This document shows positions 58,738 through 64,000 of a stretch of DNA of 64,000 nucleotides, one piece after another (position 1 is the stretch's first letter; the number at the start of each line of letters is the position of its first letter). This DNA comes from a virus, in IMG/VR virus record IMGVR_UViG_3300036770_006296, positions 142,618 through 206,617 of that record; one strand, given 5' to 3'. The position numbers and the translations under genes are program-made. The notes under the pieces are model-generated. The model saw only the letters and a list, made by a program, of their open reading frames with translations. It made no database searches and had not been told where the DNA came from.

Positions 58738-58751
58738 CTGAATTAAAATAT

Positions 58752-61294: not shown

Positions 61295-61332
61295 AAATCA
61301 TTTTTTTTATTGGAAACTTTTAGCTACTTTTG
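61295..61332 (+). promoter_or_regulatory. class 1 promoter of tRNA locus 2
   Basis: AAATCATTTTTTTTATT at 61295 and TACTTTTG at 61325, 30 nt apart. A TATATAA stretch follows at about 61336. Confidence 0.75.
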
Positions 61333-61362: not shown

Positions 61363-61437
61363 ATGCAACAATTTCTAAATATCGTACAAGTTCAGCTCGA
61401 TCTTCTTGAGGATATTGGAAAGTGTCAGAGGAATTAA
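61363..61437 (+). CDS. leader peptide of tRNA locus 2 (24 aa)
   Basis: ATG to TAA, 25 codons, the same length as leader 1 but unrelated sequence. CAA/CAG stand at codons 2, 3, 9, 11 and 22; GAT at 13 and 17; GAG at 16; CTA, CTC, CTT, CTT at 5, 12, 14 and 15. Asp, Glu and CTN-Leu tRNAs are encoded downstream; a Gln tRNA was not found. Codons 21-23 carry the antitermin­ator TCAGAGG. Confidence 0.7.
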   Translation: MQQFLNIVQVQLDLLEDIGKCQRN

Positions 61438-61486
61438 TTGATATAACGATACAATTTAAACCTCTGATAACCTCAGAGGTTTTTTT
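61425..61486 (+). terminator. attenuator: antiterminator segment and intrinsic terminator, locus 2
   Basis: Terminator: AAACCTCTGA (61458-61467), loop TAACC, TCAGAGGTTT (61473-61482) and further T. TCAGAGG in the leader (61425-61431) is a copy of the 3' arm and can pair with CCTCTGA (61461-61467), preventing terminator formation. Confidence 0.8.
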
Positions 61487-61495
61487 GTTTTATAT

Positions 61496-61512
61496 GGTCT
61501 TTGAAATATTGA
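61496..61512 (+). promoter_or_regulatory. boxA-like element, locus 2
   Basis: GGTCTTTGAAATATTGA, a one-base variant of the locus 1 element, between the terminator and the first structured RNA. Confidence 0.45.
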
Positions 61513-61516
61513 AATT

Positions 61517-61601
61517 AGGAATAAGGTAACCACAAACCCACTGGTATTAGGCAGCTCTTGAGATGGAATGCAAGACAGAGCGTAGGTCCTGCCTTATTCC
61601 T
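61517..61601 (+). ncRNA. tRNA-sized structured RNA, not a canonical tRNA
   Basis: 85 nt closed by AGGAATAA/TTATTCCT (8 bp). Inside are ACCA/TGGT with a 9-nt loop, and GGCAG/CTGCC enclosing CTCTTG/CAAG-AC-AG with a 10-nt loop, giving a three-way junction. No TTCGA T-loop. It occupies the first slot of array 2, where the Gln-rich leader would predict a Gln tRNA. It may be a highly diverged tRNA or a small regulatory RNA. Confidence 0.5.
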
Positions 61602-61608
61602 TTTTTAT

Positions 61609-61680
61609 GGTCGGTTCATCTAGGGGTCAGGATACAAGGTTTTCATCCTTGTCACACGGGTTCGAATCCCGTACCGACTA
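61609..61680 (+). tRNA. tRNA-Glu (anticodon TTC)
   Basis: GGTCGGT with ACCGACT, anticodon arm CAAGG-TTTTCAT-CCTTG, T-arm ACGGG-TTCGAAT-CCCGT. Confidence 0.93.
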
Positions 61681-61690
61681 CTACAGCCTG

Positions 61691-61747
61691 TACCCTTGAG
61701 AAACTCGTATTTAAAGATAAGCAGGTTGGTTACGAAATAAAAGGGTA
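61691..61747 (+). ncRNA. structured spacer between tRNA-Glu and tRNA-Asp
   Basis: TACCCTT (61691) pairs with AAGGGTA (61741), enclosing TCGTA/TACGA. A 57-nt closed element without tRNA features. Similar in plan to the 58569 element. Confidence 0.4.
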
Positions 61748-61766
61748 AGAGAATAAGTAACAAATT

Positions 61767-61840
61767 GGTCCTACAGTCCAGTTGGAGTGGACGCCGCCCT
61801 GTCACGGCGGAGATCGCGGGTTCGAGTCCCGCTAGGACCG
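61767..61840 (+). tRNA. tRNA-Asp (anticodon GTC)
   Basis: GGTCCTA with TAGGACC, discriminator G, anticodon arm CCGCC-CTGTCAC-GGCGG, T-arm GCGGG-TTCGAGT-CCCGC. Confidence 0.95.
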
Positions 61841-61846
61841 CAATAT

Positions 61847-61919
<73 letters not shown>

Positions 61920-61928
61920 CTAAGCCCC

Positions 61929-61977
61929 CATTTCGTACCGTTACTGGATAATATAAATCTAAGTAACGTACGAAATG
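61929..61977 (+). other. long hairpin in tRNA array 2
   Basis: CATTTCGTAC-C-GTTACT pairs with AGTAAC-GTACGAAATG: 16 bp with one bulged C and a 16-nt loop. No T-run follows, so it is more likely a processing (RNase III type) site or protective element than a terminator. Confidence 0.65.
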
Positions 61978-61990
61978 GAAATAATTTAAA

Positions 61991-62005
61991 GTTCTTTGAT
62001 ATACT
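61991..62005 (+). promoter_or_regulatory. boxA-like element before the HNH gene
   Basis: GTTCTTTGATATACT. At the other loci this element lies just before a tRNA or stable RNA; here the HNH gene separates it from the tRNA-Leu-like gene. Confidence 0.4.
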
Positions 62006-62040
62006 TTATTACATCAATTTCAGATTTGGTAGTCTTTCTT

Positions 62041-62050
62041 GGATATATAT
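62041..62050 (+). promoter_or_regulatory. class 2-like box before the HNH gene
   Basis: GGATATATAT, 17 bases before the ATG at 62068. Confidence 0.35.
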
Positions 62051-62067
62051 ACTAAAACGATTGTTTT

Positions 62068-62523
62068 ATGTATAGCAAAAATAAAATATCAGATATAATG
62101 ATAATAGAGGAGATAAAAACAGGAAATACGATGAATACCTGCGCTATTAATCTAGGTATTAAATTTTCGACGTTTAAAAGAAGAGCAATTTTACTTGGTG
62201 TTTATACTCCAAATCAAGGAAGAAAAGGAATTAAAAGAAATCCTAGTGAATTTAATAAAATTACAATATCTTTAGACGATATAATATCGGGGAAACATGA
62301 AGGACATTATACATCTTCAAGATTAAGAAAAAGATTAATTAAAGAAGGATATAAGAAAAATCAATGTGAAGAATGTAATATAAAAGAATGGAACGGGAAA
62401 GAGATAACATGTGAGCTACATCACATTGACGGAAATAGGGGTAATAACAGGTTGGAAAATTTATTAATACTCTGCCCTAATTGTCACTCTCAAACCCCTA
62501 ACCACTCAAAAAGAAATACCTAG
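62068..62523 (+). CDS. HNH homing-type endonuclease
   Basis: 151 residues. The N-terminal helix-turn-helix-like part (NTCAINLGIKFSTFKRRAIL) is followed by the HNH domain: CEECNIKEWNGKEITCELHH, IDGNRGNNRLENLLILCPNC, HSQT. Two CxxC pairs bind zinc, and the HH...N...H set is complete. It stops exactly one base before the tRNA-Leu-like gene, which has a poor 5' half, as expected if the element invaded the tRNA array. Confidence 0.88.
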   Translation: MYSKNKISDIMIIEEIKTGNTMNTCAINLGIKFSTFKRRAILLGVYTPNQGRKGIKRNPSEFNKITISLDDIISGKHEGHYTSSRLRKRLIKEGYKKNQCEECNIKEWNGKEITCELHHIDGNRGNNRLENLLILCPNCHSQTPNHSKRNT

Positions 62524-62596
62524 GTACCCCAATTGGCAGAGGGAATAGATTTAGGATCTATAAAGTGAGGGTTCGAGTCCCTCCCTGGGTACACCA
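62524..62596 (+). tRNA. atypical tRNA-Leu (anticodon TAG)
   Basis: GTACCC pairs with GGGTAC. Anticodon arm ATAGA-TTTAGGA-TCTAT gives TAG, T-arm GAGGG-TTCGAGT-CCCTC, then A and an encoded CCA. The D-arm is weak, the variable loop is short for Leu and two extra C sit before the acceptor 3' strand. It may be damaged by the neighbouring HNH insertion or be a minimal form. Confidence 0.6.
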
Positions 62597-62599
62597 AAA

Positions 62600-62673
62600 G
62601 GTCCCTTAGCTCAGTAGGTTAGAGCAACTGACTCATAATCAGTAGGTCCACGGTTCGAGCCCGTGAGGGACCA
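62600..62673 (+). tRNA. tRNA-Met (anticodon CAT), copy 2
   Basis: Identical over all 74 bases to the tRNA at 58489-58562, pointing to recent duplication or gene conversion between the two arrays. Confidence 0.93.
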
Positions 62674-62674
62674 C

Positions 62675-63193
62675 ATGAAAGTTTTATTTTTAGATCATGA
62701 TGGAGTAATTTGTCTTTCTTCACAATGGGGAGGGAGATACAAGAAGAAAGGATACGATAGTAATCCCGAAACTCCGCTGGATCTTAGAATGGACAGCTTT
62801 GATAAAAAGGCGGTTAAGGTTCTAAACGAGATTATAGAATTAACTGGATGCGAAATCGTTGTTTCTTCAGATTGGAAAAACTGGGGAGATTTAGAACAGA
62901 TGCAAAAAATGTATATTACTCGGGGGATCAAACCTCCTATCGATCTTACTCCTAACATGAAAGATTTCGACGAGAATGGATTTGCTCTTTTTGAATGGAA
63001 AGAGTTATATGGAGCTATACGTGTTACAGAAATTAGGGAATGGCTTAAAAATCACCCAGAAGTAACACATTGGGTTGCTGTTGATGATATGGATCTTTCT
63101 AAGTTAGATAACTTTGTAATGACTACTAAACCTTACAATGAGGGGATAAAACAATCAGGAATTAAGGATAAAATCGTTAAATTTTTGATTTAA
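62675..63193 (+). CDS. HAD-type phosphatase (RNA-repair-associated family)
   Basis: 172 residues from ATG 62675, one base after tRNA-Met. VLFLDHDGVICLSS (motif I, DxD as DHD), CEIVVSSDWKNW (motif II Ser), then WLKNHPEVTHWVAVDDMDL (motif IV DD). This matches the HAD subfamily also found in multi-domain 'Swiss Army knife' RNA-repair proteins. Its co-transcription with tRNAs suggests removal of 2' or 3' phosphates from damaged tRNA ends; that role is inference. Confidence 0.75.
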   Translation: MKVLFLDHDGVICLSSQWGGRYKKKGYDSNPETPLDLRMDSFDKKAVKVLNEIIELTGCEIVVSSDWKNWGDLEQMQKMYITRGIKPPIDLTPNMKDFDENGFALFEWKELYGAIRVTEIREWLKNHPEVTHWVAVDDMDLSKLDNFVMTTKPYNEGIKQSGIKDKIVKFLI

Positions 63194-63689: not shown

Positions 63690-63726
63690 AAACCATTTTT
63701 TATTCAAAATAATTGTTATACTTTTG
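63690..63726 (+). promoter_or_regulatory. class 1 promoter of tRNA locus 3
   Basis: AAACCATTTTTTATTC at 63690 and TACTTTTG at 63719 (29 nt apart), then TGAAAC as at locus 1. A GATATATAA box follows near 63747. Confidence 0.7.
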
Positions 63727-63765
63727 TGAAACAGTATCGGAATAAAGATATATAAGAAAGAAACA

Positions 63766-63873
63766 ATGAAAAACTGTAGTAAACATAACATCATTCGCAT
63801 GAACAGTCAGATTAATGGCTGCTATCAAACGGTGGCGTTTTGGGCTAAGGGGAAAGAACCCGATCGGAGCTAG
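63766..63873 (+). CDS. leader peptide of tRNA locus 3 (35 aa)
   Basis: ATG to TAG, 36 codons, encoding 19 of the 20 amino acids (no Leu), with four Asn, two Cys, and His, Tyr, Trp, Phe, Thr and Gly included. The only downstream tRNA visible is Phe (leader codon 25 is TTT). The broad composition predicts a large mixed tRNA array beyond the window. The last codons GAT CGG AGC TAG contain the antiterminator. Confidence 0.65.
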   Translation: MKNCSKHNIIRMNSQINGCYQTVAFWAKGKEPDRS

Positions 63874-63932
63874 ATACAGGAAATCATAAATAGATATTTT
63901 GGAAAAGGCTTCGATTATTCGAAGCCTTTTTT
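63864..63932 (+). terminator. attenuator: antiterminator segment and intrinsic terminator, locus 3
   Basis: Terminator: AAAAGGCTTCGA (63903-63914), loop TTAT, TCGAAGCCTTTT (63919-63930), more T. TCGGAGCT (63864-63871, end of leader) can pair with GGCTTCGA (63907-63914), eight pairs with two G-T. Confidence 0.75.
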
Positions 63933-63936
63933 ATTT

Positions 63937-63953
63937 GTTCTTTGACATACTGG
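63937..63953 (+). promoter_or_regulatory. boxA-like element, locus 3
   Basis: GTTCTTTGACATACTGG, six bases before tRNA-Phe. Confidence 0.5.
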
Positions 63954-63959
63954 AAAATT

Positions 63960-64000
63960 GGGTTGGTAGCAAAGTTGGTCAATGCACTAGACTGAAAATC
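63960..64000 (+). tRNA. tRNA-Phe (anticodon GAA), cut by window end
   Basis: GGGTTGG acceptor strand, D-arm GCAAAGTTGGTCAATGC, anticodon loop start CTAGA-CTGAAAA. The 3' half lies outside the window. Confidence 0.8.

Follow-up and report, generated by a model that had tools for sequence, protein, structure and literature searches.

Putative ribosome-mediated attenuators upstream of phage tRNA arrays carry leader codons that match the tRNA genes downstream

The window analyzed here is a 64,000-nt stretch of viral DNA, corresponding to positions 142618-206617 of a 206,617-bp contig; position 64000 of the window is the last base of the contig. It contains three units of one design, all on the + strand and each located 5′ of tRNA genes (Table 1). 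From 5′ to 3′, a unit is composed of a promoter-like TAnnTTTG site, a short ORF, a terminator, a boxA-like TCTTTGA sequence and tRNA genes, and in all three cases the 5′ arm of the terminator is complementary to the last codons of the ORF. The same three units are present in related phages. The tRNA-Phe gene following the third unit is cut at position 64000 because the contig ends there. Apart from the three arrays, no further tRNA genes were identified anywhere on the 206,617-bp contig; since its start carries none, the contig does not simply close on itself.

Table 1. Predicted features of the window and of leader-containing loci in two other phages.
Genome	Feature	Sequence or content	Position	Strand	Remark
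Window	TROVE/Ro60-type protein gene		53988-55613		
Window	Attenuator 1, promoter-like site	TATATTTG	57965..57972	+	
Window	Leader peptide 1	MNKLINILPSILRPSIRRSRKVLC	58009..58083	+	TTA, ATA, AGA, CCN and TCN codons correspond to array 1 anticodons; P 0.0006
Window	Attenuator 1, segment 2		58068..58077	+	
Window	Terminator 1		58108..58138	+	
Window	boxA-like element 1		58141..58153	+	
Window	tRNA array 1	Ser(tga) Arg(tct) Pro(tgg) Ile(tat) Met(cat) Leu(taa)	58157..58738	+	ARAGORN
Window	tRNA-Met(cat), array 1 copy		58489-58563		
Window	Structured spacer, array 1		58564-58653		
Window	Attenuator 2, promoter-like site	TACTTTTG	61325..61332	+	
Window	Leader peptide 2	MQQFLNIVQVQLDLLEDIGKCQRN	61363..61437	+	CTN, GAT and GAG codons match array 2, weakly
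Window	Attenuator 2, segment 2		61423..61431	+	Changes in step with terminator in L042 and L167
Window	Terminator 2		61459..61486	+	
Window	boxA-like element 2	GGTCTTTGAAATA	61496..61508	+	
Window	~90-nt element	GGAATAAGG...CCTTATTCCTTTTTT	61514-61606		
Window	tRNA array 2	Glu(ttc) Asp(gtc) Met(cat), HNH endonuclease ORF, Leu(tag) Met(cat)	61609..62674	+	
Window	Structured spacer, array 2		61683-61766		
Window	Hairpin		61928-61978		Fold z -7.8
Window	Second boxA-like sequence	GTTCTTTGATATA	61991		3′ of hairpin
Window	HNH endonuclease ORF		62068-62523		
Window	tRNA-Met(cat), array 2 copy		62600-62674		
Window	HAD_SAK_2 domain protein gene		62663-63193		E 2.6e-23
Window	Attenuator 3, Bacteroidota-type -7 promoter element	TACTTTTG	63719..63726	+	TAnnTTTG match
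Window	Leader peptide 3	MKNCSKHNIIRMNSQINGCYQTVAFWAKGKEPDRS, stop	63766..63873	+	35 aa; 19 amino acids, Leu absent
Window	Attenuator 3, segment 2 (antiterminator 5′ strand)	GATCGGAGCT	63862..63871	+	Inside last codons and stop of leader 3
Window	Intrinsic terminator 3 (segments 3:4 and U-run)	AAGGCTTCGATTATTCGAAGCCTTTTTT	63905..63932	+	Fold z -3.7; conserved
Window	boxA-like element 3	GTTCTTTGACATACTGG	63937..63953	+	Occurs 3′ of terminators in relatives
Window	tRNA-Phe(GAA), 5′ half		63960..64000	+	Rfam RF00005, 28 bits over positions 1-39
LR745206	Leader and array	STHKNFSKSHKWFS; His Phe Trp Lys Arg Ser			
LR745206	Leader and array	SYESYYEE; Glu Tyr			
LR745206	Leader and array	ISIAVIGNGAGAI; Ile Gly Met Ala			
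LR745206	Leader and array	TTMNLNMTMNLTLNVVNITLCNIR; Asn Arg Leu Val Ile Thr Met			
LR745206	Leader and array	PVNPQPQDQDP; Pro Asp Gln			
KVP40	Leader-like 37-aa ORF before tRNA array (L314)		178807-178917	-	Terminator 3′ of ORF

Several other features were distinguished around the arrays. The TROVE/Ro60-type RNA-binding protein (Pfam PF05731), encoded 2.4 kb 5′ of array 1, is 52% identical to gp540 of Bacillus phage G, and large tRNA arrays are also found in many relatives with TROVE genes. The tRNA-Met(cat) gene is present in two identical copies, one each in arrays 1 and 2, which could encode AUA-reading Ile tRNAs. Both arrays contain structured non-tRNA spacers; stable RNAs without known function are also located inside the tRNA arrays of T5 and T4. 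Array 2 is split by the HNH endonuclease ORF and includes a long near-perfect hairpin 3′ of tRNA-Met, with a second boxA-like sequence beyond it. The ~90-nt element between boxA-like element 2 and tRNA-Glu, possibly a novel small RNA, had no Rfam match; it is almost identical in the relative L007, while L008 and L012 have no room for it. The HAD_SAK_2 domain protein encoded between arrays 2 and 3 is of the RNA-repair type.

Leader 3 had been described in the initial annotation as a 35-aa peptide using every amino acid except Leu, while Leu tRNAs are encoded in arrays 1 and 2. Recalculation of its coordinates and composition confirmed this description, and Leu(taa) and Leu(tag) were indeed found in the two arrays. 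Among random 35-codon ORFs drawn with the codon usage of the window phage, at least 19 amino acids occur in 1.3%, and at least 19 combined with the absence of Leu in 0.005%. The reported terminator and G-T-containing antiterminator within the last codons were also recovered: segment 2 is complementary to GGCTTCGATT of the terminator arm, with G-T pairing included. The leader is kept in ten or more relatives, in most of which TAnnTTTG is located 40-48 nt 5′ of its ATG, and eight copies of equal length show 59 synonymous and 49 nonsynonymous codon differences.

No relative was found among viral or genome contigs with the ORF adjoining attenuator 3 as a query, the exact tRNA-Phe half gave no match, and the leader 3 peptide had no real match among named phages. 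Relatives were drawn by a TROVE-protein search (46 viral loci), and ten of them, with the same leader 3 and readable downstream DNA, were compared. In eight (L007/L052, L008, L010, L012, L013, L014/L054, L024 and L042/L055) the leader is followed by 15-18 tRNA genes, with the shared set Phe, Lys, Trp, Arg(acg), Cys, Ile(gat), Val, Asn, Tyr, Gly, Ala, Met, His, Thr and Gln, to which Ser, Lys(ctt), a second Tyr or Gly(gcc) is added in some phages. All 15 anticodons of this set are served by codons of leader 3, and Leu is missing from both. The array is reduced to six tRNAs of the shared set in L009/L053, and to four (Trp, Arg, Cys and Gln) in L006, the closest relative by TROVE protein (96% identity); the array of the window phage itself may therefore be partly decayed. 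The prediction that a large multi-isotype array lies beyond the window is thus supported by the sequences of the leader 3 family, in eight of the ten relatives and with the predicted set lacking Leu, while two relatives depart from it and the DNA of the window phage stops at position 64000. Leaders and arrays also change together in unit 1: in L006 the ATG of leader 1 and several array 1 tRNAs have both been lost, and in a relative of 68% identity (L015, 12588-12647) array 1 has no tRNAs for Ser and Pro, and Pro is also missing from the leader, MIGKSISLRLILRSFIRRF.

The correspondence extends to codon choice. Leader 1 contains TTA, ATA and AGA codons, which are decoded by Leu(taa), Ile(tat) and Arg(tct), respectively. 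In leader 2 the Leu codons are of the CTN type, read by Leu(tag), and the ATY and CGC codons of leader 3 correspond to Ile(gat) and Arg(acg), members of array 3 in the relatives. The weakest match in the window is that of leader 2, of which array 2 decodes 30% of the codons vs a background of 21% (P 0.2); its five Gln and two Val codons are unexplained, as array 2 contains no Gln or Val tRNA. Across relatives, leader 1 shows 12 synonymous vs 52 nonsynonymous differences, and the order of its residues shifts while the L/I/P/S/R composition is kept.

The two alternative RNA structures were examined with a folding model in which the ribosome and all upstream RNA were masked and pairing of segments 2:3 was calculated at a point at which the 3′ arm of the terminator is still to be transcribed. 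With the ribosomal A-site at codons 2-29 of leader 3, the value of the antiterminator was 0.98, and from Pro32 to the stop codon it was 0; a similar pattern was obtained for leaders 1 and 2, L012, L040 and two leaders of phage LR745206. In the untranslated window leaders, the model gave 0.48-0.76 for 1:2 pairing before segment 3 is made and 0.94-0.98 for the antiterminator afterwards. Since the ribosome-free transcript favours the antiterminator at this point, with the 3′ arm yet to be transcribed, an untranslated unit would not terminate as in trp, and on this model a complete failure of translation may leave the unit on rather than off. In unit 2 the three segments covary: TCAGAGG/CCTCTGA, present in most copies, is replaced by GCCGAG/CTCGGT in L042 and by TTTCCAGAG/CTCTGGAAA in L167, with segment 2 and both terminator arms changing together.

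To assess the codon-array match, each leader was scored against every array by the fraction of codons decoded and the number of anticodons served, and the arrays were permuted. For 29 dissimilar leaders the match was 106.7 vs a permuted mean of 1.9 (sd 11.1; z 9.4). With named phages added (35 leaders) it was 133.6 vs 1.6 (sd 12.1; z 10.9), the highest of 50,000 permutations being 57.3. A hold-out set of 17 new leaders, collected with a second DNA pattern and analyzed without changes, gave z 5.4, with the observed value reached in none of 50,000 permutations, and z 0.7 and z -1.2 when read in the +1 and +2 frames. All 52 leaders together gave z 12.8, again with 0/50,000 permutations reaching the observed value; leaders of more than 50% similarity were merged and weaker kinship remains, so these z values are not exact probabilities. 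Out-of-frame controls were null. The match was also seen at the isoacceptor level: in the split codon families of Leu, Arg, Ser and Ile, the array serves the codon box in 109 of 142 cases, compared with an expectation of 79.4 (z 5.2). The claim that leader composition predicts array content is thus backed far beyond the window phage.

Attenuators outside this family were searched for with a detector blind to codon content, which requires a terminator at most 450 nt from the first tRNA, a complementary segment upstream and an ORF ending there. A DNA pattern of tRNA pairs was used to sample 120 viral loci without selection. Of 207 viral array starts, 25 were matched by the detector, compared with 0.65 in dinucleotide shuffles, and at a stricter score 15 vs 0; the resulting 12% is a lower bound for whole arrays because many viral “starts” are gaps inside arrays. 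The majority of array starts show no attenuator unit. Bacterial loci with the same tRNA-pair pattern gave one match in 67 (L214, a Roseivirga genome), probably by chance, and its leaders do not fit the Ile, Asn and Tyr tRNAs that it encodes. Matches in unrelated phages include L040 (a 385,934-bp contig), with ...ICASSIASAKAVAPRIVPCSSKW... before Pro Pro Ser Ala Ala Gly Ile Val Cys Lys Lys Lys Trp Arg, L051, with MYMFLSLYSSLYLSLLYK... before Tyr Leu Leu Ser Ser, and L046, with ...VKKCWHMFGFAGK... before Ala Phe Lys Met Cys Gly Trp His Trp. The tRNA arrays of T4 and T5 gave no detector match, and that of phage PAU has no leader and terminator. L020 and L036, with scores of 9-10, were rejected as below the threshold, and their leaders do not match the arrays. 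The leader-like ORF of KVP40, kept in 50 Vibrio phage records and mostly unannotated, is a candidate only; its antiterminator is unconvincing, and it was dropped as a clean example as no antiterminator pairing was detectable in relatives.

The deposited genome of the huge phage LR745206 (634,780 bp) contains five attenuator units, and each of the five leaders obtains its best score with its own array. This result bears on the view that the short ORF is no more than a small phage gene with its own terminator, that the tRNAs are transcribed separately and that the similarity in composition comes from coincidence or low complexity. Terminators between phage genes are common, and the detector also matched leaders that do not fit their arrays (L119, L430, the first of L167 and the second of L073). 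We nevertheless regard this view as highly improbable, considering the permutation result for the 52 leaders with out-of-frame controls at zero, the match at the isoacceptor level, the reordering of leader 1, which yet keeps its composition, and the five self-matching leaders of LR745206.

Codons decoded by the array are more frequent in the sensing zone of the leaders than in the tail (504/744 vs 140/323, P 8e-14). In leader 3, the residues missing from array 3 (E, P, D and the last S) are located in the insensitive tail, with the exception of two AGT Ser codons, which have no cognate tRNA in most arrays. A leader of 19 amino acids would respond to nearly any block of translation, and near-universal leaders also occur at other long arrays, e.g. 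in KVP40; the leaders might thus sense translation slowdown in general, like those of some antibiotic-resistance genes, irrespective of which tRNAs follow. Short arrays, however, are preceded by narrow leaders: RRQTRKQIQGIRK before Arg, Gln and Lys (L175), PVNPQPQDQDP before Pro, Asp and Gln (L312), SYESYYEE before Tyr and Glu (L310), and the leader of L051 before Tyr, Leu and Ser. Together with the exclusion of Leu from leader 3, these make a general sensor very unlikely.

The boxA-like 16-mer GTTCTTTGACATACTG, as found after terminator 3, is also present in a Bacteroidota 16S-23S spacer. In one Roseivirga genome, the only one concerned, it lies 75-85 nt 5′ of 23S rRNA, i.e. a boxA sequence precedes stable-RNA genes of the host phylum. 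By its sequence, the phage element would be a host-type boxA (NusB/S10), shielding untranslated RNA from termination.

We propose that phage tRNA arrays are switched on through ribosome-mediated transcription attenuation in response to a scarcity of their own tRNAs, and consider this very probable; the direction of regulation is suggested by the anatomy of the units. Each array would be driven by its own promoter through the short leader ORF and the intrinsic terminator. With all needed charged tRNAs present, the ribosome would reach the last codons and cover segment 2, the terminator would form and no tRNAs would be made. If any charged tRNA cognate to the array became scarce, e.g. when host tRNAs are cut by anticodon nucleases, degraded or outcompeted during infection, the ribosome would stall at that codon, segment 2 would pair with the 5′ arm of the terminator and RNA polymerase would read through, the boxA element probably shielding the long untranslated tRNA transcript. 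As the leader would be stalled by lack of the same tRNAs, the array would be switched on when needed. Leader 3 would be a pan-codon version, with almost one codon per kind for an array of 15 isotypes. It is documented that host tRNAs are depleted in early infection and through anticodon nucleases, a loss that phage tRNAs counteract (PMC10264068, PMC11555353).

The units share with attenuators of amino-acid operons (E. coli trp, his, pheA and thr) a leader ORF rich in codons related to what is regulated, the alternative antiterminator and terminator, the U-run and, as proposed here, the stall logic. The short leader ORF ends at the antiterminator strand, an intrinsic terminator is combined with a mutually exclusive antiterminator, and leader codons match the downstream supply, weakly for leader 2 of the window. 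In contrast to these operons, the phage units would control tRNA genes and not enzymes, one leader would sense up to 15 isotypes, and codons are chosen at the isoacceptor level. Rfam matches of the region to Phe_leader and Thr_leader (RF01859 and RF00506; 26 and 24.8 bits vs 55) were far below the threshold and were set aside. Given the same architecture as in trp, his and phe, and since uncharged tRNA would stall the ribosome too, the units might respond to a host starved of amino acids, tRNA genes being controlled only incidentally. A shortage of amino acids is, however, not relieved by extra tRNA, and a match to isoacceptor codon boxes would be needless for amino-acid sensing, so that we find this extremely improbable and retain sensing of the array’s own tRNAs. 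T-box riboswitches also couple tRNA charging to transcription 5′ of translation-related genes, but their RNA binds tRNA directly, whereas the phage units use a leader peptide; an Rfam scan of the region gave no T-box match at E<=1. Genes responding to translation stress are controlled by leader peptides in mexXY/PA5471.1, ermB and msrD. There, too, a ribosome stalled on a short ORF unblocks a gene that helps translation; the trigger is an antibiotic or general stress, whereas the phage leaders would respond through a list of codons naming the downstream tRNAs.

Studies of phage tRNAs that escape tRNA-cutting defences supply the likely benefit, i.e. replacement of depleted host tRNAs; they cover tRNA sequence and promoter strength, and neither mentions attenuation or leader peptides (PMC10264068, PMC11555353). 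No earlier description of leader-peptide attenuators at phage tRNA arrays was found in full-text literature searches, which covered few subscription journals. As far as can be told, the mechanism is of a known kind, and its target, the sensing of multiple tRNAs and its breadth are new.

It is likely that these units represent a general, repeatedly evolved phage class, in which an array carries a ribosome-read inventory of itself and is made only when its own codons stall, a built-in detector of host tRNA depletion, including that by tRNA-cutting immune systems. The pattern is visible in public genomes such as LR745206. If the proposal is true, attenuation would extend from biosynthetic enzymes to tRNA genes, with one leader sensing up to 15 tRNAs, and a 100-base sequence would allow the content or decay of an array to be predicted. 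The reasons why phages encode tRNAs, and the circumstances in which these are used, have been debated for decades; tRNAs kept off until they run out would favour the depletion and defence view over plain codon compensation.
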